Source: Sphagnum magellanicum
Taxonomy: Eukaryota > Streptophyta > Sphagnopsida > Sphagnales > Sphagnaceae
Assembly: GCA_021904315.1 (NCBI GenBank)
Contig: CM038910.1
Location: 2,480,001 to 2,544,000 of the forward strand
Length of the DNA: 64,000 nt
Direction of reading: 5' to 3'
Shown: piece by piece, positions 7,301 through 40,300 of the stretch
Numbering within the stretch: position 1 is the stretch's first letter
How the letters are laid out: each line of letters begins with the position of its first letter
Notes under the pieces: model-generated
Told to the model about the DNA's origin: nothing
What the model saw: the letters and a program-made list of their open reading frames with translations, nothing else
Databases searched by the model: none
Position numbers and translations under genes: made by a program

Positions 7301-9316
7301 GTGCATATAGGCTTATTTCTTTTCTACAAAATAGACACATGGTTGCAGATACTCATGAAGCCAATATTTTCTTAGAAGAATTAGCATATTGAGATGCAGG
7401 TATATGCACCCCTTACGCTCTATGGGAGTAAGATTGATGAGCGTGCTCTCTATATTCTGGGGTGTGGATCTCCAAGTTGTGGTACCAACCCTGCAAGGCA
7501 AGTTTTGACTGGCGCTGATTGCAGCCTTTGCCTAACTTATGATCTCTATGGAGGCAAAAGCCAGTGTCACAGCCATTGATGTGGGATTCTGTTTTTGCTT
7601 GTGATTTTGAACAGCTGGCGTACAATCAGATTTCAAAAGGAGGTTGCTCATGATGAAACTTTCTTCATTGATCAGACAGACAGCACAGGGGGGTCCAGTG
7701 CCTCAAGTGGCCAACCCAATGGGTTGAGTGATGTGCTCCATCGACACAGGTACCAGACTGATAGGAGAAACTAATTGGATAACCAGGCTGCTACTTGTCC
7801 TTCTGACAAGTCAATTGGGCTTTGTCTTTTCTCATACTTCAGCTGGGTGAAATATGCAGGTGGGGTGAGGCTTCAACGAGTGGTCACCAGACACAGCAGC
7901 AAACAGAAATTGTTGATTGGTGGGATGAAAATTTATGGGATGGTGGGTATATTGAGGATGGTGATGATGAACCTGGAAATATGACTCTTCAGGATCTCCA
8001 GTCTTCACTATTAGAGAGTGGTGATTTTGCATCAGCAGCACCAAGGCACCATGAAGCACATTCAAGTTCACAAGAGGCAACAACCTCAAGTCAGAGAGGC
8101 TCTGTAACCGATATACCAAGTATGACGCTTGTGAACTTTGTCTTTTGTCTCTTTTCTCGAATGTACATCATGGACATAATGCTGTACTGCAGAACCTTTT
8201 ATTGAATCTCTCACAGAATGGTATCTTTAAACTTACATTTGGTTTTCATTCAATGACTGCAGTTCTCCCATGCTTTTATGTTTACACACAAAGTGAGGGA
8301 TCCACTGTGGATGGTAGTCCTGCGGATGATGATGACTCAGCTGAGTTTGAAGAGACTGAACTAGTGGATGCAATAGAAGACCCTGGTAACATTGTAGATG
8401 GAGTTGGTGAGCTGTGGGAGGAAGAGGAATATGAACCTGAGCATTCACTTTCAACTGACCAGACATATCTTAATTTCAAGAAGAAACTGGATTTAAGCCC
8501 TGAGCAATGTTTCAGGTACTCACTCGTGTCTAGCCTGTTGAATAAGTTTATTATTAAAAGGAAATCCAATTATTCAAAACTTGACCTGCAAGGCACTGTT
8601 ACTGTGTACAGGTCTGTCATTGTTGTCTGGGCATGATTTTGGCTTCTTGAAGGACGAAAGGTGGCCAGTTGCAACCACATCACAATGTAGTCAGAATGCA
8701 GTTTGCTATGCAGGAGAAGTAGATAGCCACTCCAAGTGTTTAGATTATTTCATGTCTTGGAACATGGAAGATAAACTAAATCTGGACATTCAAACCCTTT
8801 ACAGATATTGCTTTGGAGGCCCACCCTTGTGGGCAATGGAGGCCCATGATGAGCCAGACAAATGTGGTGCTTGTGGAGGACCCCGTGTATATGAAATGCA
8901 GCTCATGCCACCATTGCTCTACTTTTTGCAGCAAGCATCCAAGGACCTACCACCTTCAGCATATGGACCCAGTGAGTGGTCTTGGTTCACTCTGCTGGTC
9001 TACTCCTGTGCCCAGGTGCTTGTCTGCTTCCTTCTAACTTCTTGGTTTTTCTGTTTCCAAAATATTTAGGAACTGGTCATTAGATGGAGAGACATCCTAG
9101 AGTTTCTTTGGGGACACCCAACACCAGTTCTACTTACCATACATGTGCAACATATTATAGAGAATGCAGATGCTATAACAGTGCATTACATTGTTTGTGC
9201 TCTTCCAATAGAGCTGTATGCAAGGACCTGGCGACCGTGCAGTGATTCTGGGAGTACAATCAGACTGGAGTGTCACTGTGGAAGCCACAATTCTTCAGGC
9301 AGAAGCATCACACTGA
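4301..9316 (+). CDS. PDCD2/TSR4-family ribosome assembly protein, 9 exons
   Basis: Spliced CDS inferred by eye: 4301-4336, 5026-5121, 6827-6910, 7400-7497, 7615-7749, 7860-8119, 8263-8515, 8805-9015, 9212-9316. All phases join and give 425 aa. The family (yeast Tsr4, animal PDCD2/PDCD2L) chaperones ribosomal protein uS5/RPS2 and is needed for 40S subunit assembly. The N-terminal TYPP-like region has LGLPGAWAD (about 18-27) and DHYTTKIGG. Cys pairs are CGVC (60-63) and GCGSPSCG (93-100). An acidic, Asp/Glu-rich linker occupies about 165-300. The C-terminal domain has [21 protein letters not shown] (341-346), [10 protein letters not shown] (C389, C393) and an ending like the plant family ([13 protein letters not shown]). 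There is no MYND finger, as in PDCD2L. The start is the first ATG after a pyrimidine-rich leader and exon 1 is short, so the N-terminal 12 residues are the least certain part. It converges on the urease gene. Confidence 0.88.
7498..7614 (+). other. GC-AG intron in the PDCD2-like gene
   Basis: The donor reads AAG/GCAAGT, the classic context for rare GC donors, and the acceptor is AACAG/C. Splicing here joins NPA to [10 protein letters not shown] in the frame expected for the family. No GT donor nearby keeps that frame. Confidence 0.75.
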
Positions 9317-22200: not shown

Positions 22201-22201
22201 T

Positions 22202-22500
22202 TCATCTCATGACATGAGTTGACGATAACCATGCAACACTTGTATAAATTTTCATACCATCCTCTTAAGGACAAGCAAACTTATTTATATGTCAAGGGGC
22301 AGTAAGGTTTTGTTCGTTATATCAAATTAAACCACATGTTCCACCGCTTGTGTAGGCCCCCATTAATTCCTTTGAGTTTCAGCCTTGCAGTCGTACTTTC
22401 CAAGCAACGTGTTTAACACATTAGCTAGGCCCTTGATCAGCTATTTTGCATACAACGCAAACCAAGGACAAACACTCATCGTTTTCATCATTTAAGCCAT
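22202..22500 (-). pseudogene. rrn18: Mitochondrial small-subunit rRNA fragment (rrn18)
   Basis: On the minus strand this reads as the conserved 3' part of SSU rRNA: ACGATGAGTGTTTG, AAACTCAAAGGAATTAATGG, ACAAGCGGTGGAACATGTGG, AAAACCTTACTGCCCCTTGA, then GTCCTTAAGAGGATGGTA and CTCATGTCATGAGATG. The TGATCAAGGGCCTAGCTAA stretch and the GACATAT continuation fit plant mitochondrial rrn18 rather than chloroplast 16S. It differs from the expected sequence mostly by C-to-T and G-to-A changes, some in universally conserved positions, so it is a nuclear pseudogene fragment. Confidence 0.85.
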
Positions 22501-23026
22501 AAGATAATTAACATATCACATATGGTTTTTGTTGGGGGGAGGGGAGAGGGGAAGTTGCATACAAAGGCATTAACCTATCCCAATATTACGATTCTTCTTC
22601 TCCTCTATTGGATTATTATGTGGAGGAATCCTCATCTTCCAAGGCTAGCACTTAAACCCGATTCTTCTATTGTTTCAGCACTAATTTTGGTAAATAACAA
22701 AAAAAAAAAGGATGTTTTGTTAGTAAGAACAACATGTTGTTGATAGCCATTGTAATATAAATAAGTAAACTCATCCGAACTATAGGAACATGCACATAAA
22801 TAATGCAAGAACTTTCACTCTATTGAAAATCAAATGGTGCCATTCAAATACTTAGATAAATAACCATCGTTATTAAAAACCAACAAAATTCAATGATAAT
22901 TTGCACATAGTGAAAAGGACATAACATGAGAAAATAAGGTTGTAGTAATTCAGAATACATAGGAATCTTCTAATTTTATTTTTCATAGCTTTTAACATGA
23001 AACAAGATATTAAAAAAGCCAACAAA
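22500..23026. other. AT-rich spacer
   Basis: No recognisable gene. A G-rich patch (22532-22554) and poly-A runs are the only marked features. Confidence 0.4.
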
Positions 23027-23316
23027 ATGAGACTATATACCATTGGTATTTTAGTAAGAATACTTGGAATAGAAATACCCCTTTTACTAGGAGTAGTTTT
23101 TTTAGTTTTAGCTGAGCGTAAAATAATGGTTTCCATGCAACGTAGAAAAGGTCCTAATGTAGTGAGATTGTTTAGATTGTTATAACCTTTTGCATATGGT
23201 TTTAAATTAATGATAAAAGAACCCATTTTACCAAGTAGTGTTAATTTATTTATTTTTATAATGGTTCCAATATTTACATTTATGTTAAGTTTGATTGCTT
23301 GGGCCATCATACCGTG
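23027..23316 (+). pseudogene. nad1: Mitochondrial nad1 5' exon fragment
   Basis: It translates from an ATG as [20 protein letters not shown] and continues through [18 protein letters not shown] and, after one in-frame stop, [11 protein letters not shown] to IAWAIIP. That is the N-terminal part of mitochondrial NADH dehydrogenase subunit 1 (complex I). The internal stop and loss of the rest of the gene make it a nuclear copy that cannot work. It starts exactly at the normal start codon. Confidence 0.9.
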
Positions 23317-23399
23317 CACCATCCATTAAAGAAAAAGGGGGCCATATCCTTAAATTAAAAAATGTCATAGAAAAAATGTCAAAGTAGGTACCCTTTCTT

Positions 23400-24320
23400 A
23401 CCTTTGTTTCATTATGCCCCTATATTTGATTGGCAATTACTTTCGATGAAGGAAGTACGGTTGAAAAATGTATATATGCGCTGTCGCAACCGCACTTTGG
23501 CCAAGTGTGAGGGTGAAGCCCAACACTTGGAAAAGTTGGAGGTTGAGAGTCTTTCGGGACTCCCAAATGTTCAGAGCTCGACAACAAGGCCCAAAACACC
23601 TTGCATTGAGGCGTTCTTGGTGTCATTGGAAAGGTCTTGAAACGTAGATATCGAAAATGGCCTCGTATTGCCAATTCGGACATCTGCAGCCCAAGTTATG
23701 GGCAAAAGAAGGGCCGGGAGTCAAACTGGTAGTTTGACTCCCGACCACTAAAAGTCGGGAATCGACGTCTTCCCGACGTCGCCTTGAAGAGTGCAACACG
23801 GCGTTGGAAAGCTCTCGACGAGAGCTACAACATTGATTCAGGACTCGTCCCGATTCAAGTTTGGGGCGAGAAGCTATGGCCGTTCAAAGTTCTGAGAGTC
23901 TAACCGGGACACTTTCGGGACTCCATTTCGGGAGTCCCAACAAAATGTGCCATTCGGATGTAGCCTCCGCGACCAACCGCAGAGAATACTATATGGGGGA
24001 AGCTGATGGCTTCCCCCGGGTCCAGGCCGTGGTGAGTCTTGTGTGTCCAAGTGCCCGTGGCAAGTCCCAACACCAAAGGGTGTCCCGAATGCTAAACTAA
24101 CCCGATTTGGTTGGTTTTTGGATGCTGATTCACACGAGCTAAACTAGTCCCTCTTCCTAGTCTAATCTCGGGGCTCCCAACTTGACCCTCTACCCCTTTC
24201 AAGAGTTGGAAGTTGGGAGCGTGCTACCTAGTCTCAACTTTCCGCAACTTGACTTTGTGAAACCCTCAAGTGGGATTCACCCCGTGACTTGGGAGCGCAT
24301 CATGCGCCCATAAATAAATC
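23400..24320. repeat. GC-rich, hairpin-rich island, possibly an LTR remnant
   Basis: This stretch is sharply richer in GC and CpG than its neighbours. It contains several strong palindromes: a 13-bp stem with 3-nt loop at 23715-23743, GCTCTCG/CGAGAGC at 23811-23825, GTCGGGAA/TTCCCGAC near 23753-23776, and a 9-bp stem at 23995-24017. CGGGACTCC-type motifs recur in both orientations. A run beginning TGTCGCAACCGC at about 23481 could be an LTR start, but I found no matching end, primer-binding site or coding domain. Open frames within it lack motifs. Confidence 0.4.
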
Positions 24321-25235
24321 ATGTTTGATTTATTTAAGTCATTCCAATCTAATTATATAAGTATGGATTATCATAGATAAATCACCGCAAATAATTGAAA
24401 TCCATGTTAGACACAAGGGATATGAATCATCATAGAAGATCAAAATTCATTTACTATAAGTAAACTCTACCACCCTTAAATTTATTTTCTTTTTTTCTAT
24501 ATTACCTCTTTGTATGTGGTTCTTTAGTTTGAAGAGCCCATAAGCATTTTGTATTATATGCCTATAGCAATGTTACAATATAAGCTTATATGGTTTATGT
24601 TATTCTCTTGGAAAACAAAGCCCGAGGAAAAAAATCAAATGTCATTTAGCCTTGATGATCTTAATTGTAGTGTGGGAGGATACTAGAAATAACTCATACC
24701 ACGATTGCTATGTTTTTTGGGTATTTTTTTCGAAAAAAAAATCCTTGTAAGTAGGCCTCCAAAATGAATGCAAAACAAAGCTAATCTAACTATATAGTGG
24801 GCTAACTATTAGACTTTAACTAATATAGACTAAACTCTTTTTTTCCAAGGAGGGAGTGAAGATAAAAAAACTAATAGCCACACCTTAATAAATAGGGGAG
24901 TACACTTAGAAAATAACCTCGTAAAAGCTTAAAAGAAGCTAGATACTTGATTATAAAGATGAATTGGCCTTTTAACAAGCCAACTCTTGCTTCTGCTCTT
25001 GTCATTGCTAGAAAATCAGACAAGTTTACATTGCCATTTCATAGCAATGATGATGAAATTGTCTACTTTATGACATATAACCATTATATAAAATAATATA
25101 GAGCAAAGATTATTCTGTTATAAAACAAAATAGACTAGGCTAAAAGAAGTACACTCATGTAAAATCCATGATTGGTTGGACTTTTTTTATTTGGATATGA
25201 CGCAATAGGTAGCTTGAACCTTTCTTCCTTTTTTA
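24320..25235. other. AT-rich DNA without recognised genes
   Basis: I recognise nothing beyond poly-A and poly-T runs. Confidence 0.4.
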
Positions 25236-25307
25236 AGCGACACCCAAATTCGAACTAGGGATAGAGGATTTGTAGTCCTCTACCTTAATCCACTTGGCCA
25301 TATCACC
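25236..25307 (-). pseudogene. trnC: Chloroplast trnC(GCA) pseudogene with altered anticodon
   Basis: The minus strand reads GGTGATATGGCCAAGTGG, GAGGACTACAAATCCTC and GTTCGAATTTGGGTGTCGCT, the layout of chloroplast tRNA-Cys. The anticodon position (25271-25273) reads ACA instead of GCA, a G-to-A change. The acceptor stem keeps most pairing through G-U pairs. It is almost certainly a non-functional transferred copy. Confidence 0.85.
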
Positions 25308-25570
25308 TCCTTTGTATCCTCAAGCTATATTCCTATTTATACGGTCGTATATCAAACTAGTAAAAGTTCATCTTAGTTGTAATGAGTGACGGAGTAATCT
25401 ATTATAAAGCCTAATCATCTTTTAATCAAACTTTACTTGATCAAGATGGGGATGCAATGAAAAAAATGGGTGGGATATATCATTTTTTATAAATAAAATT
25501 ATTCTTTAATAATTATTATTTTTATTTTACCCAAGAATAAAGAAAATCGACCTTTTCTATTCAATTTCCT

Positions 25571-25610
25571 TCTCAAAGAACTGTACATGACAATTACCGT
25601 CATACGGGTC
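25571..25610 (-). pseudogene. Group II intron domain V remnant
   Basis: The minus strand reads GACCCGTATGACGGTAATTG then TCATGTACAGTTCTTTGAGA. This matches the domain V hairpin of organellar group II introns (GAGCCGUAUG...GUACGGUUCUUU) with two changes that weaken the stem. It lies about 0.3 kb downstream, on the same strand, of a maturase-like reading frame, as expected for an intron with an internal ORF. Confidence 0.7.
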
Positions 25611-25892
25611 CCCTTATTCTCCAACTAGTATATGTTTTAAACTTGAAACCATGGGTGTGGTTTAAAGTAATATTGTCTACATAAAGTTTGTCATGATGAC
25701 GCTTGCACAAGGATTTTTTCTTTGGTCAAATACTGAGCCATCCAATCAATCTTTTCATTCTGTGATTTAAAATGGAAAACTTGTTGATCATAACTTGGTT
25801 GGCAATATGTATGAACTCAAAATCTTTTTTTTCTTGGCCCATACTTAAGTCTTTTTCGGACTTTATCAAACACTTGATGTTTAGCGTTGCTC

Positions 25893-26177
25893 TTAATTAT
25901 AGGCACATTTGGGGGATTTATCATAAATATTTTCAGACCTAAGAAAAAGATCAATCCTATTTGAAATTATATAGGTTAAATTAATTTTCTTTAAATTAAA
26001 CATAATATTAAACCTAAAGAGGTTTTCTTTAAAGAATGATGTCAAATTTGTATTATATGTTTCGCCAGAAATTGAAGTCCACACAATGATAAAGTCATCT
26101 ACATAGCATATATGGTGAAGGTGTACATAGTTTGGATCCTTCTGGTCTGCAAAGGTTATTATTTCTTTCGCAATCAA
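25893..26177 (-). pseudogene. Group II intron maturase (reverse transcriptase) fragment
   Basis: A 94-residue open frame carries the reverse-transcriptase catalytic box as CYVDDFIIVW, followed by a FFKENL...NLKKINLTYI stretch typical of the palm/thumb boundary of group II maturases. The rest of the protein is missing. Its orientation agrees with the domain V remnant. A non-LTR retrotransposon origin is the main alternative. Confidence 0.6.
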
Positions 26178-26199
26178 TTTAAATTACCGTCTCTCTTTT

Positions 26200-27344
26200 C
26201 TTTCCAAAATAATCAAAATGCTTCCTAGCTTCCTACGTTTTTATGTGGGATTTGGGTCTTTGTAAAAAATAATCCAAAGTATATACTTTTGGAATTATTA
26301 TATTATTCAATGCAGCTTGTCTAACTATATTGAATATAATTCCATTTTATTTATCGTAAGTGCATAGTATGATACTTGCAAACTCACTAGAAGCAAAAAT
26401 AAATAAATAAATCGCTTCTATTTGCCGCAACAACCTAAGGGCGTCAAGTGTAAACCATTTCCACCACATGTGCATCGTTCTGACCTTTAAAAAATAGACA
26501 ACCTTGAAATGGGATATTAAGTGAAAAAGGGTGTTATGCCTTCCACAACCCAATTAATGCCTGAAACAATATGGTGGGATTGAGAACAATCAAAAGGAGT
26601 TTAGAATAAGTAAAAGCGCAAGGTGGGGATAAATTATACATACATATATATGTATATAGATGTTATATTTTATTTTCTTGATTGGTTCAGCGATGACTTA
26701 TAATTAAGTCTACTTTATCTCAAGCAATCTCAATGTTCTTTGAATTTCACATGATGTTTTCGAGGCAACTTTATTACTAAAATTGTTCCACTTGCGTAGC
26801 TCACATCCTAATGATAGCCAACTTGAACAAATGTAGCAAAGTTGGAGTAGAACATGCAATTGTGATGATATATTTAAGCACATTCAATTATTCCTTACAC
26901 TAAAGGTGTTGCTACATCTTGAAATCCTAATTGCTAAGGTTTTGCAACGTCACAATAAGCAATTGGAAATAGCCATATTTTTTCAAAATCATTTGGTACA
27001 TTCTTGTTTTGTCAAAACTATTCCAACCCTTCTAGAAGGCCCTTTGCAAAAAGGCCAACCAACCAAAAAAATAGATTTTTTTTTTGCCTTCACATAAGGA
27101 CGCCCATATAGGTAGACCCACCATAATGATCCCATAAAAACCCATCAAATAGAAAGATCAAAAATAAAACCCACCCTCCAAAACCATAGGTGATAGCTTT
27201 GCATCATACGACTTTCCATTTCAATTGATAGGACTTGAGTCCTAAAAAATAAACTTGGTAGGCCTAAAAAGGAAAAAAACCTAAGCTCCCAATGGCTCTT
27301 CAAAAAGCGAAGGTACTTTTGTATTTTATAAAAACAAAGGAGTT
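26200..27344. other. AT-rich spacer inside the organelle-derived cluster
   Basis: No gene was recognised. The open frame at 26906-27097 has no family resemblance I can name. Confidence 0.4.
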
Positions 27345-28539
<1,195 letters not shown>

Positions 28540-29500
28540 TCTAGTATTTTGAACATGGTGGCCTTACTCCTCAAGACACCAATCAAAAAATTGTCTGCAT
28601 ATCTAATATATTTTACCCCAATGAACTCAAGGTTTTTATAATATTTGTGGTTGATTTGCAACTCCCTTGCCGTGTGCATTCAATGCCGATTTTCGCACCT
28701 TAGTTGCTGTATATTTTTCTTTATCTTGCCATCATTTTCCTATCTAGGTAATTTAGTTTTCAATATTCAGGGTTAATGTGGCTTGGATTTCATGTTCCAT
28801 TTTTTCTTAACCTAATCTACTTCATCTTCTAGTTGGTAGAGGTAAATATCACACAACAGAAATGACAACATGCTTTTTCCTTGAGGCATTATCTTATCTT
28901 CATATATAGATCTTCCTACACTTATTATGCCCACGTATATGTGTTAACATATCCAAAAAATGTTTATTTTGTATATTTTTTTAAATAATGCCTTCGAGCC
29001 TTTTTCGATTCAAGGTTTCATAGCACTTTTGAATGTCGAATTCAATAAAGCAAGACATTTTCTTCTACCCATACTTTATGATTTTGAGTGCTATATGGCA
29101 AGACTTGGTCAGTCTAAACTTATGCAAGTCCTTTCAAAATGTTGGTTTGTATATTTTTTTTATAGGATTGCTTTGATGATTTTTTATACTTGGTGGTCTT
29201 TGAGGTTGATCATTACAAGCAGTCTCATCTCCTTGGGTTTTCCTAGTTTTGGGATGTTGACTTGTCTTGCAAGTTTAAATGAATATTTTCTCATGCATAG
29301 TCATTTTGCAATGTGCTCAAACCATCTTCAGTTGACACCCAAAATAAAATGTTTTCCTTCCCCTCCTCCCCAAGAAGGTCTTCCGTTCATCATCTCCTCT
29401 TAGGGTCATGTTTTTTAGTTCAAATTTGATATGTTTGTATGTTGTTATGAGCACATGTGGGTCAACTATTATGTTGGTGATCTTTTGATATTTTATTTTG
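28540..29500 (-). pseudogene. Decayed group II intron maturase, several RT motifs in order
   Basis: Reading the minus strand from 29500 down, the order of a group II intron-encoded protein is visible: an N-terminal HIKFELKNMTLRGDD-like block, NIPKLGKPKEMRLLVMINLK (fingers motif), FIEFDIQKCYETLNRKRLEG (palm), IMPQGKSMLSFLLCDIYLYQ (PQG box) and YIRYADNFLIGVL (catalytic YADD box with Asp-to-Asn). Frames shift and stops intervene. The mitochondrial genomes of early land plants carry many such ORFs, so mitochondrial origin is likely. A second copy of the N-terminal part lies inverted at 36490-36735. Confidence 0.75.
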
Positions 29501-29512
29501 GCATTAGGTTTT

Positions 29513-29716
29513 AGTTTCCAAATCCAATTGGTCGCAATCTTAACTCAGACATGAGAAATAAAACTTTTTCAGTTTTCAATTCCGAATCCAATTGGTCGCA
29601 ATCTTAACTCAGACATGAGAATTAAAACTTTTTCGGTTTTCAATTCCGAATCCAATTGGTTGCAATCTTAACTCGGACATGAGAAATAAAACTTTTTTGG
29701 TTTTCAATTCTATCCA
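29513..29716. repeat. Three 64-bp tandem repeats
   Basis: Near-identical units begin at about 29521, 29585 and 29649 (AATCCAATTGGTCGCAATCT ... AAAACTTTTTCGGTTTTCAA). The minus strand has an open frame (29609-29815) that starts in unique DNA (MEIAPCLWGKATIYTVLVEP) and runs into the repeats. I cannot assign it. Confidence 0.85.
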
Positions 29717-30154
29717 TTGTTGAACCAACAAAGTTTCCTTTGTAAGTTCTTGTGGTGGTTCTACTAGGACTGTATAAATCGTAGCCTTTCCCCATAGACA
29801 AGGTGCAATTTCCATTAAAAGTTCTCTCTATGTATTTAAAGATTTATAGGGCCTTGGTTGACTTGTTTGTTGTCGTGGAGTTTGTGTATTTTCCGATGCA
29901 AGGTTCCCTTTTTCCTTCCTATGTAGTAAAAGTACTCATGTTGTAAATGGCACATATCCCAAATTCACGCATGTGTAATCCTAGGTGTCTTCCCTCCAAG
30001 AATGGGGCGACCATCATCAAGGTTCATTTTCCTAAATTTCCGATAGTTAGTTTTTGACTCACCTACTTTCAACTCAGTTCTAATCAGATAAGGCATATTA
30101 CACGCTAAAGGATCCTATGCAAAGCTTTCCAATTCTAGCAATCCCATGTAGATT

Positions 30155-30945
30155 TCACCCCGTTCACACGATTTACACATAATCCTACGTTAATAACAAG
30201 TCAAATTCCACGATAAAAGAGTTTTGTTTCCAAAAAGATTTGTCCATTTGTAATTGAAATAACATTCATAGGAATATAAGTAGACACGTCTCCAACTTGT
30301 GTTTCAATTGCGAGTAATGCAATGAAACTACCTACACCAATCTACTCTGACATTTTAGCGACTTTTTTTAATAAACGAAAATGTAAATAGAATACATCTC
30401 CTAGGAACGCTTCACAACCTAGTGGTCAACATAACAATAATGGCATTTGATGATATGCCACTAATTGCTTACTTAGGTCATCATAAATAATTAAAGCATG
30501 CATTCCATTATCTCGAAAATATTTTCCCATAACACAACCTAAATATGGTGCCAAGAATTGTAGAAGAGCAAGATCTGAAGTAATTGTTGCTACAATAATG
30601 TGATATTCTAAAACATCTGCTTCTAAAAAAATCTTAACCAATTGTGCCACGATTGAACGTTTATGTCTAATTACTACATACACACAATAAAAAATTTCAT
30701 TATTTGAAGTGCCCTGCACGTTGATTTGCTTTTGGTTTAATATGGTATCAATAGTTATAGCAGTCTTTCTAATTTCTTTGTCTCCTATTATAAGTTCTTA
30801 TCGACCACGACCTATAGGAATTAGGCTATCTACTGCTTTCAATCTTGTTTGCATTCGTTCATGCACAAATTTACATACAATAATCCCAAGGGTTTTAACT
30901 TCTACACACCTTCGTTTTGTAGCACTAAAAACATCAAGGGAAGAG
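30155..30945 (-). pseudogene. atp1: Mitochondrial atp1 fragment
   Basis: The alpha subunit of mitochondrial F1-ATP synthase is readable over about 260 residues: [135 protein letters not shown] and [14 protein letters not shown]. The Walker A segment is damaged (GDKEIRKTA instead of GDRQTGKTA) and there are stops. LAPYSGCAMGEYFRDNG and NQKQIN distinguish the mitochondrial gene from chloroplast atpA. Confidence 0.92.
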
Positions 30946-31269
30946 GGAAATGTTACCATCTTGAAAGTAAATAACTCAACAACAAAGCAAACTTACTTTC
31001 CATATTAAGATGATTTGATGTTGTAGCAAATTATAAAATATTTTAAGGATTTTTACCTAGTAACTGAACATTGGCATCTAAGCTACATAAATGAAAACAT
31101 GCGCAAATGTACGTCGCTTGCTCTTTTGCAAGTGTTTTTGCTTTATGCCTAAACGTGTTTTTTTTTTTCGATGTTTTTTTGCCGATGAAAACAAATTAAT
31201 TTTGCCATCATCAATATCTTTTACCATGATATTGTCGATTTTTTAGTTCATATTCAAAATGGAAAAAAA
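30946..31269. other. Spacer
   Basis: AT-rich, nothing recognised. Confidence 0.4.
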
Positions 31270-31425
31270 TTTCCATTGATTATGAAAGATGATTCTGAGT
31301 TGCTTTATCTAGATCAAATGCAAATTGTGCAAAGGCTCCTAACTCCACAAATTAAGCAAATTCTAATTTGAATTTTCTAGTTACTTGTTTCATAGCTTTG
31401 ATTTGAGCCGCAAAACCTACTCCAA
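31270..31425 (-). pseudogene. atpA: Chloroplast atpA C-terminal-region fragment
   Basis: The minus strand reads AAQIKAMKQVTRKFKLEFA, a stop, then FVELGAFAQFAFDLDKATQN. This is the chloroplast ATP synthase alpha subunit; mitochondrial Atp1 would read [21 protein letters not shown] here. It is only about 50 residues long and carries a stop. Confidence 0.85.
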
Positions 31426-32356
31426 TTATATACGATCAATAAAAAGATTAATAGACAAACACAGTATACCTTCCGTCAACACTTCATTTTAGATAGCAAA
31501 AGAAAAGTGGTAATAGATTTTTTTTTATAAAAAATTTAGTCATTCTAAAAAATCAATATTTTTTTGCCATGGATTTTATCTTCAAGCTTTTTGTTTTTAT
31601 TTTTGGGTTCAACCCAACTATGTTCGCCTAGGTGGTGTTGTAAAGGCAATGTATCACCTTTTCTATTAACGCAATTGCACCCATGACCAAGAAACCAAAA
31701 AAGATGTTGGTTGCTAATTTGTTCTACAAACGAGATGGGAAAAAAAAAAAAAAAAAATCGTTTACTTTATTCCCTTCCATCACCTAAATGGCATCGTGAG
31801 CTTTTGATGGCAAAATATCAATTGCATATGCCATTGGTGGCTTTCACAAAGACCGATATAATGATAACAATAACATAGCCAAGCTTGTTATGCCCAATGT
31901 GCAAAAAAAAAATTTTTTTTGAATGCACTTAATAAAAAAAACTCTTTATTTTTGGCATTCATAGATGGTGCGTAGAGCCAAAAAAGATTATATTGGTGCT
32001 TTCTTGTTTTGCGCCTTTTGTTTTGTAAAAAAAAGAAGCCTACAAAGGTCATAGGCTGCAAAAAAGGAATATATATTTACATTTTCTCCATTACTTCACC
32101 TTTAACATAGTAAATAATGGGGCAAGGTGGAATGATGAAAGTGCCCGTGGCCGATAAAAACATAAAGATTATGCCATTATTATGTAATATAATAATAAAA
32201 ACGCACTCTCAACCATGAGTCATTCTACTTATCATTACACTTTTCTAGCTTTATGTCAAAGCATTGCTTTCAACAAAATATATGTTTTACATGGACAGAA
32301 GAACATTCTAGTAAATATCCAAAACAAACCAAGAAAGAAGAGGAATATGAATGCCA
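31426..32356. other. AT-rich spacer with long homopolymers
   Basis: Contains an A-tract at about 31740-31757. The open frame at 32215-32490 is an artefact of the rRNA fragment that overlaps its 3' half. Confidence 0.45.
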
Positions 32357-32612
32357 TAATGGCACAAGCCTGCTTAACTATGAGACTTACTAATCGAACA
32401 AACACAAAAGTCGACCATAGTGATTTGGGAGTCTCGTGTGGAAAGGCTTTCGCTCAATGGATCAAAGGTACAATGGGGATAATAAGTTGATGACTCCCAA
32501 GAGCTTTTATCGACGAAGTCGTTTGGCACCTCAATGTCAACTCATCACATCCTGGGGTTGAAGAAGGTCCCAAGGGTTTGGTTGTTCACCAATGAAAGTG
32601 GTACAAAAAAAT
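32357..32612 (+). pseudogene. rrn26: Mitochondrial large-subunit rRNA fragment (rrn26)
   Basis: It reads as domain V of LSU rRNA (peptidyl-transferase region): GCTTAACTATGAGACTTACT, GTCGACCATAGTGATTTGGG, CGCTCAATGGATCAAAGGTA, CCCAAGAGCTTTTATCGACG, GTTTGGCACCTCAATGTC, CATCCTGGGGTTGAAGAAGG and TGAAAGTGGTAC. The details fit plant mitochondrial rrn26. It ends abruptly in an A-rich run. Most differences are transitions. Confidence 0.9.
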
Positions 32613-33269
32613 AAAAAATAAAAATCTGGTTCATTTCTCCCACTTTATTGGCTTTATGGATATAGGGGAGAAATAGACTTATTAAAGGCCTCCATTTTTA
32701 AGTTTGAGTTCTTTACAAGTACGTACAACTATTGCCCTAACTACTTTTGATTTTTTTGACAGGCATATTTGGTATCACCCTTTTTCATCTGTTAATAAAA
32801 AAAAAATCATTTATAAAATTCTAAGAAATTTTCCAACTAGGAAGGATTTGTTCTATGATCCAATTTTTCCACCATTGTGAACCCCAAAAATGAATTTGGT
32901 CATATAGAGACGTAATACAAAGTTTTTTTAAAAAAAATTGTCTAGTAACTAAGTATTTCTCCTCCTTTTTAAAAAAAAATAGCAAATTATTCTTACTCCT
33001 CCAAAAGAAGGAGAATGATGCAAAAAAATACAGAAATTTCGATAACATGTTCTGCCTTAAGCAAACGTCAAAGAGTATGTGTTCAAATCACAATCCAAGA
33101 TTTTCAAGGGTTTGCGATGAAATGACCATAAAAAGGAAGAAGTAGGTAATTGCGGCCTATTTGGTGACAAGTTTTGCTTAGAGAACTTTAGTAATAAGGA
33201 CTTAGACAAGAAAACTTGTTTTCTTTTCTTGTAATTTAATAAATACGTAAATCAATAATTTTTTAAAAA
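32613..33269. other. AT-rich spacer
   Basis: No gene recognised. Confidence 0.4.
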
Positions 33270-33362
33270 ATGCTTCAACTAGATCAATTTACGTATTTGA
33301 CACAATTTGTTTGGTTATGTGTGTTATGGGTCATGGTCGTGTTATTTATATGTTTAATTTTT
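33270..33362 (+). pseudogene. atp8: Mitochondrial atp8 5' fragment
   Basis: It opens with MLQLDQFTYLTQFVWLCVL, the conserved N terminus of the mitochondrial ATP synthase subunit 8 of plants, then loses similarity within about 30 codons. It starts at the native start codon. Confidence 0.8.
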
Positions 33363-33744
33363 TAATATGCCGAGTAACACGTTCGACTGCGCCCTTATAT
33401 TAATAAACATATGTTTCATTTTTATTACTACATCACTAGGTAAGACCTAATAACTTATTTATTCGCCCAATTTATTATCTAACACACATAAAAAAAATCT
33501 ATATTTTTTTCACCCCCCTCACCCCACATTCATTATTGGCTTTATGAAGGGAGAGCAGGACTTTAATCTCGGAAAATGTTAGCTCTCTAGGGGTTTATTC
33601 AAAAGTTTACCCGATCACAATTGTTACCTTTAACCTTCTATAAGCAAAATCTAGTTTCATTACATAGACAACTCCAATCTACTTTAGTCAATCATATGGA
33701 TATAAAAAGAGTTTTTGATTTATAAACAATACAATATTTCAACA

Positions 33745-34025
33745 ACTTTTTGAACTTATCTTTTATCCTACTTTCCATTGGGTCATAATTCGACTATGGA
33801 AGCAAGCCCTATCGATTTTATGAAAAATAAAGCTGATAAAATGAAATCTCTCTCCAATCTTCCATGGAAAGATGTAGGTTTTTTATGATGATAATTGGAG
33901 GCCATGTTCTGCTAGGAAACTGTTGGCTTCTTCAAAATATTGTTCCACCAACCTCTCATCATTGATAATAATAACAAAGTTATCAACATACTTGATGAGG
34001 CAGACTAATGTTGTTTTTTGGGTTT
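33745..34025 (-). pseudogene. Group II intron maturase fragment (YVDN box and X-domain start)
   Basis: The minus strand reads IKYVDNFVIIINDERLVEQY, then FLAEHGLQLSS, a stop, KTYIFPWKIGERFHF and KIDRACFHSRIMTQ. That is the catalytic RT box (Asp to Asn) followed by the thumb region of a group II maturase. It belongs to a different maturase from those at 25.9 and 28.5 kb. Confidence 0.6.
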
Positions 34026-34111
34026 AACAAAAGAAAGACTTATGGGCTTCGTGGCCCCAACAACTTTGTCTCTGTGAAAGCACGGAGGAAGACCTAGTAA
34101 ATAAAAATCTA

Positions 34112-34183
34112 AGCTAAAAAAGGGACTTGAACCTTCAACCTTAACCTTGGCAAGGCTATACTCTACCATTAAGCTATTTCCGC
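34112..34183 (-). pseudogene. trnG: Mitochondrial trnG(GCC) copy
   Basis: The minus strand begins GCGGAAATAGCTTAATGG and carries CCTTGCCAAGG (anticodon GCC intact) and GGTTCAAGTCCC. The 3' acceptor strand has decayed to TTTTTTAGC, so the acceptor stem no longer pairs well. It resembles plant mitochondrial tRNA-Gly. Confidence 0.8.
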
Positions 34184-34288
34184 CAACTCTAATAAAACAA
34201 TAAAATAGAGGGAAAATATGTGTAATTATAATTACATACTTTCAATTTATCAGACGTATTTTCCTAATACAATTTGATTAATAGCGTC

Positions 34289-34356
34289 ATGCTTGGAAAG
34301 ATTTGAACTCTTGACTCCCAAATCTATAAGTGTTCTATCCAATTGAACGACAAGCA
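34289..34356 (-). pseudogene. Degenerate tRNA remnant, trnR-like
   Basis: The minus strand begins TGCTTGTCGTTCAATTGG and ends GAGTTCAAATCTTTCCAAGC, giving a pairing acceptor stem, a D-arm and a T-arm of tRNA-Arg type. The anticodon arm is shortened and scrambled, leaving about 68 nt. It lies 105 bp from the trnG copy on the same strand, so the two may have moved together from mitochondrial DNA. Confidence 0.55.
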
Positions 34357-34399
34357 TAAGAAGATAGACTTGTTAAATATTATGGAGGTTTAATCAGTA

Positions 34400-34655
34400 C
34401 CATGCTAATGTTCTTAATATTTTTTTATTTTTTACTTTAGCCAATATGAGTTTACTTAGTACTAGCAGCTTTATTGGGGAATTTCTTATTATAGTATAAG
34501 CTTTCCAAAAAAATAACTTAGTGGCCGCATTAATAGCACTTGGGATGATTTTAGGTGTAGCTTATTCTCCTTGGCTATATAATCATGTGATTTTTGGGAA
34601 TTTCAAACCTAAATCCCTCCAAAAAATTTCTGATTTAAATGGAAAGCTTACATAA
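34400..34655 (+). pseudogene. nad4: Mitochondrial nad4 C-terminal-region fragment
   Basis: It translates as LANMSLLSTSSFIGEFLIIV, stop, AFQKNNLVAALIALGMILGV, AYSPWLYNHVIFGNFKPKSL and QKISDLN, the antiporter-like subunit 4 of mitochondrial complex I near its C terminus. One in-frame stop and truncation make it a pseudogene. Confidence 0.9.
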
Positions 34656-35139
34656 ATTTGTATATAAGCAGTCATTTCTTCCTCTCTTTAGTGATAAGTA
34701 ATTTGATTATTTTAAAATAGTAATATATGGAAATAATGCTTGTGAAAAGTCCTAAAAAACTAGGAGATATAGACCTTCAACACATTTCATTTTATGTCTC
34801 CTCTTTCCTTTTTTATTTTTTTTGAGTGAACCTTGTCGAAGAAAGAATGAAAAGGATTGAAAAAAGATGTACATATTTGTTTTTCTACAAGCTCTTAAAA
34901 ACTTTATTTAAATTTATCTTTTTGTTTATTGTAAGGGAGTGTGACGTGCTAACCAAAATAGATGATGTTTAATTCACTATAACCCCACATAAAGGATCGT
35001 GATAGGTGTCTAAGTATTTTTCTAAAAGCCTTGTGAAATGTTTATGGGCATGCATGATTTCTTTTGGAATTTCCATCCAAGAAGATATGTTTAGAAAGGC
35101 CTCTTTGGACAAGAGACACTTAACTAATTGCTTAGTTTC

Positions 35140-35332
35140 ATTTTTTTCGATTCCTCTAAAGACAAAAGACTTAATTAATGCCTTTTTTGAACCTTATCAG
35201 TATTTAATATTTTGCAATATGAAATTTCATGCCATAATTGTTATTTGTATTTTATTTTTGATTAGTGATGTTGGAAAATCTACACAAATAGGATTACATA
35301 CTTGGTTACATGATGTAATGGAGGGTTTTTGA
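35140..35332 (+). pseudogene. nad5: Mitochondrial nad5 fragment
   Basis: [20 protein letters not shown] then [20 protein letters not shown] matches the conserved core of mitochondrial complex I subunit 5 (expected GLHTWLPDAMEGP). The upstream part of the frame is only weakly similar. It sits about 0.5 kb after the nad4 fragment on the same strand. Confidence 0.88.
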
Positions 35333-35473
35333 ATAAATATTTGAGGGCTCTCATGTGCCATTAGGTACATTCCAACAATATCATTATACAAGAAGGCACA
35401 ACTTTAAATATTGAAGAGAATTTTTTTATAAAAAGAATTATTTACTCCCACATGCCACATTGTGGTAGAAATA

Positions 35474-35578
35474 TAAATTATTTGTCACAATTCAAGGTGC
35501 AAGTGCACTTTTTTTCTTTTTTTCTTTTTGTTGTGGGGGCCATTACCCTGCAAAACATAATAAAACTAGTGTTGCACC
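35474..35578. repeat. Direct repeat, left copy (pair with 36298-36395)
   Basis: ATTATTTGTCACAATTCAAG, GCAAGTGCA, GGGGCCATTACCCTGCAAAA and AAAACTAGTGTTG recur, slightly diverged, at 36298-36395. The two copies flank the chloroplast atpA and trnD pieces. Confidence 0.7.
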
Positions 35579-35693
35579 CACATTATTTACATAATAAATG
35601 ATGGAGGCTGGTTGGAAATTAGGGGGACGGAAAAAATGTACAAAGAATCATTGAAGGCACAATGTTTTCCTTCTTCTTAGCAAAGGCCAAAAA

Positions 35694-36045
35694 TACTTGC
35701 GCATTGCACATATTTATGGTCTTGACAATGTAATGGCGGGCGAGTTGGTCGAATTTGAAAATGGTATGATAGGCATTACTTTGAATTTAAAATCAAATAA
35801 TGTCAAAGTTGTTTTAATGGGTGATGGCTTGACCATTCAAGAAGGTAGTTATGTAAAAGCAACGAGTCAAATTGCTTAAATACTAATAAGTGATGCTTAT
35901 TTGGGTTGTGTCGTAAATGCCTTAGTTCAATCTATTGATGATAAAGGTCAAATCCCAGCTTTGGAATTCAAATTGATTGAATCCTCATCTCTTTGTATTA
36001 TTTCAAGGCCTTCTACATATGAACCTATGCAAACAAATGGAAAAA
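35694..36045 (+). pseudogene. atpA: Chloroplast atpA N-terminal-region fragment
   Basis: It reads [58 protein letters not shown], stop, [34 protein letters not shown] and YEPMQT. This is the beta-barrel region of the chloroplast ATP synthase alpha subunit. The first 60 codons form an intact open frame; a stop follows. It belongs to the same gene as 31270-31425 but lies on the opposite strand. Confidence 0.93.
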
Positions 36046-36213
36046 AAAATTGCTAAGACAAAAATATATATATAATTAAATTAAGGTTTTTTTCAAAATA
36101 TTTGGAATATATATTGTGCAAAAAATTAAAAATATTTATTATTCTTTATTTTACATTCCAAAATTCATTTGACACAAACACTTATGGATTGACATAATAA
36201 ATTCATATTTAAT

Positions 36214-36287
36214 GGCATTGTAGTTTAATCGGTTAGAATACCACCCTGTCAAAACGGAAGTTGCGGGTTCAAACCCCATCAATCCTG
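36214..36287 (+). pseudogene. trnD: Organellar trnD(GUC) copy
   Basis: The 74-nt sequence GGCATTGTAGTTTAATCGG...CCACCCTGTCAAAACGG...GCGGGTTCAAACCCCATCAATCCTG folds as tRNA-Asp with an intact GTC anticodon (36248-36250). Acceptor and anticodon stems have mismatches relative to the organellar gene (C at position 3, AAAACGG instead of AAGGCGG). Chloroplast origin is likelier given the adjacent atpA piece, but plant mitochondria carry a near-identical gene. Confidence 0.8.
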
Positions 36288-36297
36288 ACAAAAAGAT

Positions 36298-36395
36298 AAA
36301 TTATTTGTCATAATTTAGGGCGCAAGTGCATTCATCTTTTTTTGCGTAGTAGGGGCCATTGCCTTGCAAAATGCAGTAAAATTAATGTTGAGCCA
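36298..36395. repeat. Direct repeat, right copy (pair with 35474-35578)
   Basis: A diverged copy of the left repeat: ATTATTTGTCATAATTTAGG, GCAAGTGCA, GGGGCCATTGCCTTGCAAAA. Confidence 0.7.
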
Positions 36396-36489
36396 ATCTT
36401 TTTTTTTTCTGCCTTTTATTTTTGTTTTCTTCCTTGCCTAATAAAGCTTAGAGAAAAAAATACATTTTCTTCTCTACCTAATGCCGACA

Positions 36490-36735
36490 AAAAATTTAAA
36501 AAGATCACCAACATAATAGTTGACCCACATGTTCTCATAACAATGTACAAACATATCAAATCCAAATTCAGAAACATGACCCTAAGAGGAGATGACAAAA
36601 AGAAGACCTTCCTAGGGGGAGGGGAAGGAAAACCTTTTTTTTTCTTGGCATCAATCGAATACATGAATAATAACTTGGCTATCCATTTCCGAAGCATATC
36701 CAAATTTTTCACAACAAGGTTATGAAAATCCCTAA
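36490..36735 (+). pseudogene. Group II maturase N-terminal block, inverted copy
   Basis: VDPHVLITMYKHIKSKFRNM then TLRGDDKKKTFLGGGEGKPF corresponds closely, at DNA level too, to the minus-strand block at about 29290-29500. The spacing and wording (KSK..NMT) resemble the N-terminal RT-0 region of group II maturases. The following residues differ between the copies. Confidence 0.55.
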
Positions 36736-36867
36736 AAAATAATTGGTCATATCATATGCACTAATTGTCATTTGTCCAAAAAACCTATAGATTTTATCTT
36801 TCGATACTCAAATCAAGGTCCTGAAAATGAAAGGATATTACCATATTGAAGTCATAACACTCCTTTT

Positions 36868-37110
36868 TGAAAATCCCCTTTATAATAGTTAGCATTGCTA
36901 TTCTTCATCTTGTTACATTACATCAATATGGTTCTAATAATCCATTGGGTATCAATTCTTTTGTGGATAAAATAGTTTTTTATCCCTATTTCTACATAAA
37001 AGATTTATTAAGTTGGGTAATTTTTGCCATTTTTTTTCTATTTCTTTTTTTATGCATCCAATGTTTTGGGGCATCCTAACAACTACATACTTGCAAATCC
37101 ATGTATAACT
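36868..37110 (+). pseudogene. cob: Mitochondrial cob fragment
   Basis: [40 protein letters not shown] and [14 protein letters not shown] are mitochondrial cytochrome b. After a frameshift it continues as [14 protein letters not shown]. The heme-ligand region [10 protein letters not shown] keeps its histidines. Similarity stops close to where bryophyte cob genes carry group II introns. Confidence 0.92.
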
Positions 37111-37335
37111 CTTCTTGTTTGTTACAATTATGTCTGGAGGGTTGTTCGCACGTGAGTAGCATTCAAACCCATGTGCCTTCCGGCCTCGCCTTTCTATAAG
37201 GAGGAAAAAAGTTACCTTATCCCTATGCATACAATTGTCCTTGCAATGAAACGTAGATGGTACCCATGTTATGGTTCCTTGCAGTCCAATCCCACACAAG
37301 GTTAGGGAATCCACTCAAGCAATTGCTTTGAACCT
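37111..37335. other. Possible cob group II intron sequence
   Basis: Directly after the cob exon is a GC-richer block containing GAGGGTTGTTCGCACGTGAG and GCCTTCCGGCCTCGCC, which looks structured and could be intron RNA sequence. I cannot see domain V or VI, so the call is tentative. Confidence 0.3.
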
Positions 37336-40300
37336 TCATCTTCCCAAATGCACCCTCTTAGGTGCACAACACTAAGTAAACCGAGCCAACTCACATTATG
37401 CACTAATGGTGGATAATCATATTTTTTAAAGGTACTAAGTACAACTCCATAGATAAGCAAAATGATGGTTGCATTATTTATGATAATTCATTCAAAAAAC
37501 CATGGTCTTTGGCTTTTGGCTCTTAGTTTGATAGTTTTCACCCTTGGCAATAGATAATAGCCTTAAAAGCTTAGAAAGAGCTTGACCTAGCAGGGCAACA
37601 CATAAATCGTCACCATATTTTCGGCTTAACTTAAGGCACCCAAAAATCGTACATGGTGGTTTGCCTCCGTTTGGCTTAGACTATATATATATATATATCT
37701 TCTTTTTTTTTTGTACTCCATCACGTTTTTTTTGTCGTCCCAATTTCAAGTTGGCTTGTTTCTTTTGTTCTTTTGAGTGATCTTTTACCCCACCTATTTT
37801 GAGATATTTAATTCCTAATAACGTCAAAAAAATCTTGGATATTTTCTTGTTTGAATCCTAATAACCTTTGTAAACCTCAAATGTTTTTATTCTAAACATA
37901 AAAAATAATTGTATGTTATATGTTTCAACTCTAGAGGCAAATAAACAACATAGAAGAAGCATAAATCATTTTTTTTTAAATGACCTTTTATTTCTAAATA
38001 TCATATCTTCCTTGTTTTCTATCCATTTTCAATAATCTAAAGTGCTATGGATGCACTAAGTTAAAATCTACATGTATTATTTAACCTATAGAGGTAAAGA
38101 AACAACATAAAAGAGCCATGAAAAAGATGAATATGTTGAATTTCAAAATATGGATTAAGCCAATGACCAAACATTGACCCCACTTATTTTTAACAATCAT
38201 ATCTTCTTCATTTTGTGTCTTTTTTGAGCAATTTAAATGACTATGGGTACACCAAATCAAGGTCTAAAAAACCCTTTTCCACTTGAAAGGCAAAAGGACA
38301 ATGTACATTAAAATCTAAAATTATTTAAAAACTTAAGTGTTTGCTCACTAACTTGTCTTATAATAGTTGCAAATGAGTTGCAATTATGATGTAACTAATT
38401 TTTTATCCCATACTATTTGTCCTACCTTTCATGTTTGCAGAATATATTACTAAGTGCATTTAGAGTATTAAAAACAAGTGACATTTGGAACAAACTAATA
38501 AAAAAAGGTTTGGCCTTAAAGTTTAAACCCAAAATAAAATAGGATTATTCCAAATGACCTACCTACTTACTTTAAACCTACCTACCTATCTATTTATGTC
38601 TAATTTACTTACATAACTAGACTATGAAATTTAAGTAATAATGCTTACCTACTTGTTGACTTAAGCACAACATGTCAACATATTATTGGCCTTAAGTTGA
38701 ATGATGTTTAAATTTAATTAATAAAAATATTAAATATCAAAATAAATTTATAATTGTCACATTCCATTAATGATTTGTCAACACAATGTGTAGGGCATTA
38801 TAAATCATCAAAAATGGAATAAATTTGAGAAAGTTATGGCCCCCCAAAGTAGAGGGGATCAATTTTTTTTAAAAAAAAACAAACCATTGAATGCTACAAA
38901 GGCCAATTCCCAAACACTTAAAAAAATCCTTTTATGTTGTTTTATTGTTATTAAAGTTCAAATATGATTGTAAAACTTCAGGTGGCATTCCTATAACACT
39001 TTAAATCATTAAAAATGAATAAGAAATAAAAAAGTTATGAGGTTTGAAAGTTGGAGGGGTCCAAAGAGGGAAAAAAAAAGGAAAAAAAAATGTTTTGTAA
39101 GTTGGAAAGTTTATTTCTCTTCTTGTTATTTCTTCATTACACCTTTTCCTTTACATTTCAAAGATGATTTCTAAAGCTTGAGATAACACTCCCATAACAT
39201 TTTAAATCATTCAAAATGAAATACATATGATGAAGATATAAATAATTGATGGATATGTATCTTTATTAAGTTATAAGTAGTTGTATTGTAGTCATAACAT
39301 AATTGAATAATAATATTTTAGTGATGGCGCAATAGTGGTTGGGCTAATTGTATCAATGGGAATCATAATCGAAAACTAGTTACAAATATATTCCATAATG
39401 GGTGGTCGAAACGTGGACATGTGGCATGATCACATTATGTAGTTTGTACCTAATTGCAACATAATTGTTGCTTTAGTAACACATTTACAAGTAGTTACCA
39501 CATGTAATTTTTGAAAAAGTTAAATATGATTGACTACATATGTATGTATGATATGTATAAATTATCATATAAAATACCCATTTTCAACTCACTTGCAATT
39601 ATAATACAACTACATGATTTTTTGATGTGACAATTTATTTATTAATACATCGTATTTCTAGAGGGATAGTTGCACTTAGTTGTAATACCCAGAGATAATT
39701 GTAAAATAGTTGTATATGATCATTTTTTTGAGTTTTAGTTGTAAGATAATGTGGTTTCGACAAATGCAATTTCTCAAAGTGTCTACTTCATTTCATAAAT
39801 CAAGGTATGTAGAAATATCCTAATATTCCTCAATATAAACCACCTCAAAAATGGGAGGATGACCTAAATAATGATGAGGTGAACAGGCAATACAACAAGT
39901 TGTAGACATTGAACTATAATAAAAATATTTAGGAGAACAAATGTAAATTATTAAAATAATGTATCGACATCATCAAACACTATAATTGCATTTGGAATGT
40001 GTTATTCCATATGTGCTTGTCTCCAATAAGGAGCAACTATAGAGACTAATGGGAATAGATTATATAACAATGTACCAAAGATGTGACAAGATCAATTAAG
40101 TATGGTTCAACACGGATAATGGGTTTGGAATATAAAAGTTCATAAAGGATTGTGTACTAAGACCTACACCAAACTGATGTAACTATTGACAACAAGAGGT
40201 CCACATCTAATTATTGATTGTCTTTTCATTGAGGAATTTGTGAGGCAAAGCTTTATGGATCATGTCACCATAGAAGTGCAAAAAAATTGAACATGGAAAA

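Follow-up and report, generated by a model that had tools for sequence, protein, structure and literature searches.

We analysed a 64,000 nt window of contig CM038910.1 (positions 2,480,001 to 2,544,000, forward strand) of the moss Sphagnum magellanicum (assembly GCA_021904315.1), and identified within it a mosaic insertion of mitochondrial and plastid DNA at 22202..37864 (15,663 bp; window coordinates are used throughout). The block is a numin, a mosaic mitochondrial–plastid insertion of a kind known from flowering plants, and was very probably made in one event. It occupies one insertion site, its plastid and mitochondrial pieces show equal C-to-T decay, and its scrambled origin is combined with near-blunt joints and with two source regions that were sampled twice. 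The block lies in the nuclear genome, on a contig of 26.7 Mb (C4) and with dispersed repeats on both flanks. Matches to repeats and fragments were sought in the window's own genome (438,994,042 bases in 31 contigs, the window being C4:2480001-2544000); C and L numbers denote contigs and compared loci of that genome.

An uninterrupted paralogue of the insertion site

The flanks are two parts of one dispersed nuclear repeat, split by the block. The left part (21562..22201) has six paralogous places, 76-82% identical, five of which end at 22200-22202; the rest of the repeat (37865..38790) has many paralogues, several starting at 37865-37867. By search coordinates, the two parts adjoin in four of the six left-flank paralogues listed, lying 0 bp apart on C16 and on C7, and 5 and 14 bp apart at two places on C2. 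The C16 paralogue (L049, C16:10393500-10393680, 181 bases) is an empty site that aligned without a gap over the joined flanks 22201|37865 (CATAAATATT|CCTTTGTAAA), with no target base lost or duplicated. The outermost organelle fragments agree with the edges of this site to within one base, the first starting at 22203 and the last ending at 37863-37864.

An assembly artefact was also considered. An artefact is hardly compatible with a gapless paralogous empty site at the edges together with one C-to-T level inside, a later insertion with its own target duplication lies within the block, and the likely source assembly is described as having ~70x PacBio coverage and a contig N50 of 17.5 Mb (PMC9946827). 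We regard the probability of an artefact as close to negligible.

At a separate place, C4:8566717-8576449, the two parts of the flank repeat lie ~8 kb apart with an 821-bp long terminal repeat (LTR)-like copy between them, possibly another copy of the repeat carrying an insertion.

Composition of the block

Genome matches tile 22202-37864 in 50 rows, corresponding to 48 fragments and one LTR-like element that splits one of them. The rows cover 14,938 of the 15,663 bp (~95%), the remaining ~725 bp being short unassigned stretches, and the fragments range from 49 to 2784 bp with a median of 204 bp. Rows 27962-28099 and 28020-28152 overlap and are perhaps one fragment, and the largest fragment (~2.8 kb, 28150-30933) was pieced together from matches to several old copies and may be a composite. 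Fragments were labelled from their own genes or by linkage to loci in which genes had been identified. For plastid labels this was C7:142-212 kb, of which 203-213 kb and ~3 kb near 194 kb were read, and for mitochondrial labels mainly C11:3.29-3.36 Mb, read in parts. On these labels 24 fragments (25 rows) are mitochondrial and 11 are plastid, whilst the organelle is not fixed for 13 fragments (2,208 bp by row lengths), all of which recur elsewhere in the genome. The DNA between genes also recurs, with sharp match edges that mostly abut the next match, and several of the matching nuclear places, when read, were long organelle DNA.

An initial annotation of this DNA had recognized a mosaic of mitochondrial and chloroplast pieces in one nuclear block, which coding pieces and genome matches bear out, and had described both orientations and a non-organellar order, which agree with the scrambled source positions. 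Its left edge (22202) was exact, whereas the right edge, given as 37335, moves to 37864 on the evidence of the empty-site paralogues and the last fragment. The tiling raises its count of ~15 fragments to ~48 and exceeds its size range of ~70-800 bp, and much of the intervening AT-rich DNA that it called not obviously organellar is organelle-derived by genome matches, with one nuclear LTR-like element at 23482-24302.

Coding pieces of both organelles are present: plastid atpA and rpoB, and mitochondrial nad1, nad4, cob and atp1. The nad1 piece matched NADH-ubiquinone oxidoreductase chain 1 (E 1.4e-31; chloroplast homologues 1.6e-8) and Pfam family PF00146 (E 1e-20). In a solved-structure search, the nad4 piece matched chain 4 (E 1.1e-23), the cob piece cytochrome b (E 2.8e-19) and the rpoB piece RNA polymerase beta (E 5.6e-43). 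We take the top entries for these four pieces to be plant mitochondrial or plastid proteins. The atp1 piece matched mitochondrial ATPase alpha at E 2.2e-50 versus 1.1e-32 for the chloroplast subunit, and the atpA piece matched chloroplast ATPase alpha at E 1.1e-34 versus 6.2e-15 for the best mitochondrial-named entry. A Pfam scan of the single peptides gave no match above the curated cut-off for nad4 or cob, and no family for rpoB. The RNA genes of the block are one large subunit (LSU) rRNA piece and four tRNAs. The translated pieces contain stops or are cut short, and no function is therefore expected of them.

Equal C-to-T decay in plastid and mitochondrial fragments

C-to-T and G-to-A changes were counted per C or G site in 24 rows, representing 22 of the 48 fragments (6 of the 11 plastid and 16 of the 24 mitochondrial). 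The rows left out were without a reference, apart from 32606-32690 and 36289-36394, which were omitted despite having one. The rates per row (0.11-0.21) were homogeneous (chi-squared 13.8, df 23, p 0.93). Plastid fragments had 100 changes in 590 sites (16.9%) and mitochondrial fragments 472 in 2690 (17.5%; Fisher p 0.76, with one poor reference omitted); the 95% error on the difference, calculated by hand, is ~3.3 points, and the two levels agree within ~20%. The decay was concentrated at CHG (163/407, 40%) and CG sites (140/430, 33%) relative to CHH sites (269/2421, 11%), as expected of methylated DNA.

Scrambled origin and near-blunt junctions

Source order was judged by positions on nuclear copies, standing in for organelle positions. 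Window order and source order gave a Spearman coefficient of -0.47 (p 0.17) for ten plastid fragments on C7 and 0.12 (p 0.67) for 15 fragments on C11. The fragments come from different organelle places, in mixed orientation and in an order unlike that of the organelle; their sources are spread over nuclear copies of organelle DNA, across ~70 kb for the plastid and ~65 kb for the mitochondrial ones, in scrambled order, and do not reduce to a single continuous organelle locus rearranged by simple inversions. Two source regions are each represented by two fragments, which differ mostly by changes private to one of the pair: the source of 35387-35693 and 36289-36394 (14 and 9 private, 2 shared) and that of 29341-29509 and 36476-36659 (8 and 7 private, 2 shared). 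More than one molecule therefore took part.

One 5-kb plastid stretch, that of L036, contributed four pieces scattered across 12 kb of the block, as expected if a longer insert had been broken. The block might accordingly have begun as one or a few large organelle insertions that were shattered and rejoined in place in a chromothripsis-like manner, with most of the length lost. However, such a history would need an insert of ~135 kb, of which about a tenth was kept (if the source spans are taken), with both organelles in one insert; the flanks would have to stay intact to the base, and the double sampling of two source regions, with largely private changes, also speaks against it. We consider shattering in place quite unlikely.

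L036 (C20:1810001-1820000), in which plastid genes, rpoB among them, run as long open frames, and L037 (C7:203001-213000) are young plastid insertions, 97.8% identical over 9.4 kb. C20 (4.7 Mb) is presumably the small sex chromosome. The plastid-like matches on C7 span 142-212 kb, and may be one very large insertion near the contig start.

In 39 of the 49 neighbouring row pairs the edges lie no more than 12 bp from each other; two of the 39 are edges of the LTR-like element. At nine junctions for which both sources were available, the shared runs were 1, 0, 4, 0, 0, 0, 1, 0 and 0 bp, a mean of 0.67 bp versus 0.73 bp for random source pairs. Small fillers are present in at least two junctions. 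Microhomology-driven joining had been suspected from match overlaps of up to 18 bp (80 bp in the pair at 27962-28152), and was rejected because base-level sharing was at chance in the nine junctions. The scrambled order, the double-sampled sources and the chance-level sharing together argue that many loose pieces were joined end to end, and against repeated capture.

The idea that modules with recurring edges are mobile cassettes was also considered and ruled out: comparison of the loci in pairs showed long uninterrupted shared sequence, in several cases including organelle genes, and the recurring edges therefore belong to the cut pieces of the window. Thus L024, L025, L026 and L028 share one stretch, L025, the one read, having cox1 pieces, and L030, L032, L033 and L034 share another, L033, the one read, having cox1 and atp4 pieces (gene names assigned from the frames).

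No donor was found among the compared nuclear copies. Of 344 changes private to a single copy in eight aligned stretches, 99 are also present in the window, and wherever a copy has at least 10 such sites in one stretch, the window matches at most half of them. This result bears on whether the pieces came from older nuclear copies of organelle DNA instead of straight from the organelles. The genome is rich in such copies, the listed matches lie on large nuclear contigs (C1-C20), and the atp1 fragment has no young copy among its best matches. However, pieces from older copies would be expected to differ in C-to-T decay, which was homogeneous, and none of the compared copies with at least 10 informative sites in a stretch exceeds one half in shared private changes; an origin from older nuclear copies is highly unlikely. 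The compared copies of the atp1 region (L021, L022, L023, L027) are themselves old, ~16-17% apart; for other regions, young copies were among the best matches.

Evidence weighed against a single event

Several points weigh against a single event or bear on how firmly it can be read. Transversions, tried as a second clock, failed because they were heterogeneous over the same 24 rows (chi-squared 60.2, df 23, p 3.5e-5); p was still 0.028 without rows 31713-31976 and 35387-35693, and fell to 3e-10 (20 rows) with one reference per row and near-gap columns dropped. Total divergence per row was 0.055-0.167. Errors on short fragments are wide, and a small late arrival is possible. The references for the fragments are other nuclear copies of organelle DNA in place of organelle genomes, and where they differed as C/T or G/A the C or G was mostly taken as original. 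Organelle labels based on linkage are inferred, the base-level reading of the empty site comes from one paralogue, L049 on C16, and the near-blunt joints fit end joining without proving it. Finally, the shared derived fraction in the donor comparison, 29%, exceeds the 12% found at sites where the references agree, an excess that may reflect hypermutable sites.

Plastid and mitochondrial fragments did not differ in transversions (30/1542 versus 181/6956, Fisher p 0.15). The excess in rows 31713-31976 and 35387-35693 consists partly of runs of adjacent changed columns, and row 33155-33325 had 14/155 transversions against L030 alone and 4/164 against three references. Complex small changes, changes in the references and alignment slips may explain the excess.

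The uneven transversions would suit repeated capture, in which organelle pieces were added over time at one hot spot. Repeated capture would also account for both organelles at one site, and is raised as an option in PMC6215612 and PMC7037861. Against it, C-to-T decay was homogeneous in the 22 fragments tested and equal in plastid and mitochondrial DNA, no clear nuclear element other than the LTR-like insertion separates the pieces, the flanks are flush, and recurrent cases were looked for in rice with none reported (PMC6215612). We judge repeated capture extremely unlikely. The initial annotation had named both repeated capture and the joining of many fragments during repair: the former is not supported, whilst the latter is, by the position of the block as a single unit within a nuclear repeat that has a paralogue uninterrupted at base level and by the equal C-to-T decay of the two organelles' DNA, though transversions vary between fragments.

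A model for the formation of the block

In the single event that we favour, mitochondrial and plastid DNA would have been broken into pieces of roughly 50-2800 bp, which would have been joined end to end in random order by non-homologous end joining. The resulting ~14.8 kb of filler would have been sealed into a clean double-strand break within the dispersed nuclear repeat, without loss or duplication of a target base. Afterwards, the block decayed by C-to-T change, mainly at CG and CHG sites, and received one LTR-like insertion. We infer that end joining was the pathway, that the source was a loss of integrity of both organelles, and that joining took place before or during insertion and not after it.

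It is conceivable, but rather unlikely, that dozens of pieces from the two organelles had first been assembled outside the chromosomes, as a concatemer or an episome, and that this molecule was then integrated in full with both ends joined flush. If so, organelle-derived molecules resembling minichromosomes would occasionally exist in moss nuclei.

The LTR-like element (23482..24302, + strand) is 821 bp long, has TG...CA termini and is flanked by a target duplication of 5 bp, TGCGC. Its other copies are dispersed over at least 39 places of ~820 bp, 37 of those listed being 92-94% identical, and its host fragment is uninterrupted in L020 and L025. The element is best read as a solo LTR that arrived after the mosaic.

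Comparison with known numins

Numins were described as nuclear mosaic insertions in nine flowering plants by Portugez, Martin and Hazkani-Covo 2018 (PMC6215612), the only paper matched in a literature search for 'numins' of mitochondrial and plastid DNA. Like the present block, they hold fragments of both organelles side by side at one nuclear place and in different orientations; their junctions are blunt or share 1-7 bp, comparable to the 0-4 bp at our nine inner junctions, and the mechanism proposed for them, in which fragments are joined before or while they are captured in a double-strand break, is the same. The present block differs in being from a moss, and in having ~48 fragments versus 4 in the worked example of that study (Fig. 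2). Terminal junctions were omitted there for want of close genomes, whereas a paralogous repeat here yields both outer junctions, and recurrent capture, tested there by a comparison of two rice genomes, is argued against here by the decay test over 22 fragments. As described in PMC6215612, Noutsos, Richly and Leister 2005 reported five numins in Arabidopsis and rice, 3-92 kb in size and composed of as many as 100 segments drawn from both organelles. These large mosaics resemble the present block in their many segments from both organelles but, per the same source, no joining or recombination signatures were detected in them and the mechanism was unclear.

The titles and abstract openings listed from the literature on nuclear mitochondrial and plastid DNA (NUMT and NUPT) in Sphagnum, moss and bryophytes contained no moss mosaic of both organelles, which is no proof of absence. 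In the portions compared, the review PMC7037861 does not mention moss, bryophyte, Sphagnum or Physcomitrium, and PMC9946827, on the Sphagnum genome, does not mention NUMT. The kind of insertion is already known; the empty site and the decay clock make for a cleaner demonstration than in the literature compared, where one stroke versus repeated capture has so far been argued from inner junctions and the two-rice comparison. In the present case, both outer junctions can be read to the base from a paralogue of the repeat, and a decay clock linked to methylation allows the plastid pieces to be dated apart from the mitochondrial ones; both favour one event. Paralogous empty sites and per-fragment decay tests could be applied to mosaics in any repeat-rich genome, so that the question becomes directly testable across plants.

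Fragments along the block

The first piece at the left edge is a small subunit (SSU) rRNA fragment (22203..22491, - strand; C11:3298320, 87%), identified from its sequence and labelled mitochondrial by linkage. Next lie a plastid fragment of the ycf66 region (22483..22689, +; L036/L037), one whose organelle is not fixed (22678..22977; C5:3457911, C4:21306345), the mitochondrial nad1 fragment (22973..23322, +; PF00146 and genome matches) and the fragment split by the LTR-like element (23322..25183, +), mitochondrial by linkage, parts of which are uninterrupted in L020 and L025. These are followed by a plastid fragment with a decayed trnC (25180..25530, -; L036/L037 and tRNA search), a mitochondrial fragment from a region linked to cox1 (25522..26242; L024, L025, L026, L028), a fragment of unfixed organelle (26246..26688; C11:5988856), a mitochondrial fragment (26724..27350; L030, L032, L033, L034), the plastid rpoB fragment (27347..27748, +; L036/L037), a plastid fragment by linkage (27748..27958; C7:142383, C20) and the two overlapping rows (27962..28152; C19:1965099, C5:3439859), one of which adjoins the LSU source.

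The large mitochondrial atp1 region (28150..30933, -) matches L021, L022, L023, L027, L029, L031 and L038. To its right are two fragments of unfixed organelle (30934..31289; C10:15630776 and C11:3296201, C7:10073981 and C5:3454221), a plastid fragment adjoining atpA (31290..31422; L041) and, again with the organelle not fixed, a 49-bp fragment (31422..31470; C7:467269, 96%) and another at 31621..31711 (C5:3445713 and others). A mitochondrial fragment by linkage (31712..31976; L020), one of unfixed organelle (31972..32189; C7:1265113) and a mitochondrial fragment (32186..32354; L030, L033, L034) precede the LSU rRNA fragment (32407..32603, +; Rfam RF02541, E 5.7e-29; C19:1965490), labelled mitochondrial. 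Linkage labels the next two as mitochondrial (32606..32690; L047) and plastid (32781..33043; C7:180997, C20:1164624). Four mitochondrial fragments follow, at 33153..33325 (L030, L033, L034) and 33326..33466 (L024, L025, L026, L028) and, by linkage, at 33615..33768 (L020) and 33762..34049 (L029).

A decayed trnG-GCC with a second tRNA (34046..34384, -; L047, C11:5975256, tRNA search), labelled mitochondrial, adjoins the mitochondrial nad4 fragment (34367..34644, +; L048 and the chain 4 match), a plastid fragment of the ndhB region (34638..34775, -; L036/L037) and three fragments of unfixed organelle (34777..35173; C5:3491125, C11:3312277 with C5:3497747, and C11:5885570 with others). The mitochondrial, nad5-like fragment at 35180..35383 (+; C15:10422443, 94%) had been considered as sdh, an identity that was dropped; it has a weak match to the antiporter-like NADH dehydrogenase subunit family (PF00361, E 0.014, below the cut-off), and we take it to be nad5 by its motif. 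A mitochondrial fragment by linkage (35387..35693; L047 963-1268) is followed by the plastid atpA fragment (35701..36035, +; L041 and chloroplast ATPase alpha) and by a plastid fragment by linkage with a decayed tRNA (36118..36288, +; trnD; C7:173781, C20, tRNA search).

The second samples of the two source regions lie at 36289..36394 (covering part of the source of 35387..35693; L047 1043-1148) and, from the paired comparison of copies, at 36476..36659, on either side of a fragment of unfixed organelle (36397..36460; C9:18998184). Beyond them are a plastid fragment by linkage (36665..36792; C7:161760, C20), a mitochondrial fragment (36787..36878; L030, L032, L033, L034), the mitochondrial cob fragment (36874..37112, +; C1:28654215 and others, cytochrome b), a mitochondrial fragment by linkage (37102..37476; L048, C15:10430351) and one of unfixed organelle (37472..37639; C20:1064454, C17:13641033, C6:24676185, 92%). 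The last piece, at the right edge, is a plastid fragment by linkage (37639..37864; C7:145507, 92%).

Other features of the window

Two further dispersed repeats lie near the block. One of ~985 bp (38795-39780) has 39 places among the matches listed, at 78-84% identity and some of them partial, and one of ~290 bp (20034-20323) has 28 places among the matches listed, at 85-91% identity. GC content drops at ~20 kb (window 20001) from ~0.42 to ~0.32, and is mostly low up to ~60 kb. In the GC-richer left third of the window, an exon at 8731-9069 carries a PDCD2 C-terminal domain (E 2.9e-16). At 13618-14082, a match to the Rfam family 5_ureB_sRNA (83 bits, + strand) lies opposite a minus-strand exon for the urease alpha N-terminal domain (Pfam PF00449, E 6.3e-54); the match probably follows conserved urease coding sequence and is not a real antisense RNA.

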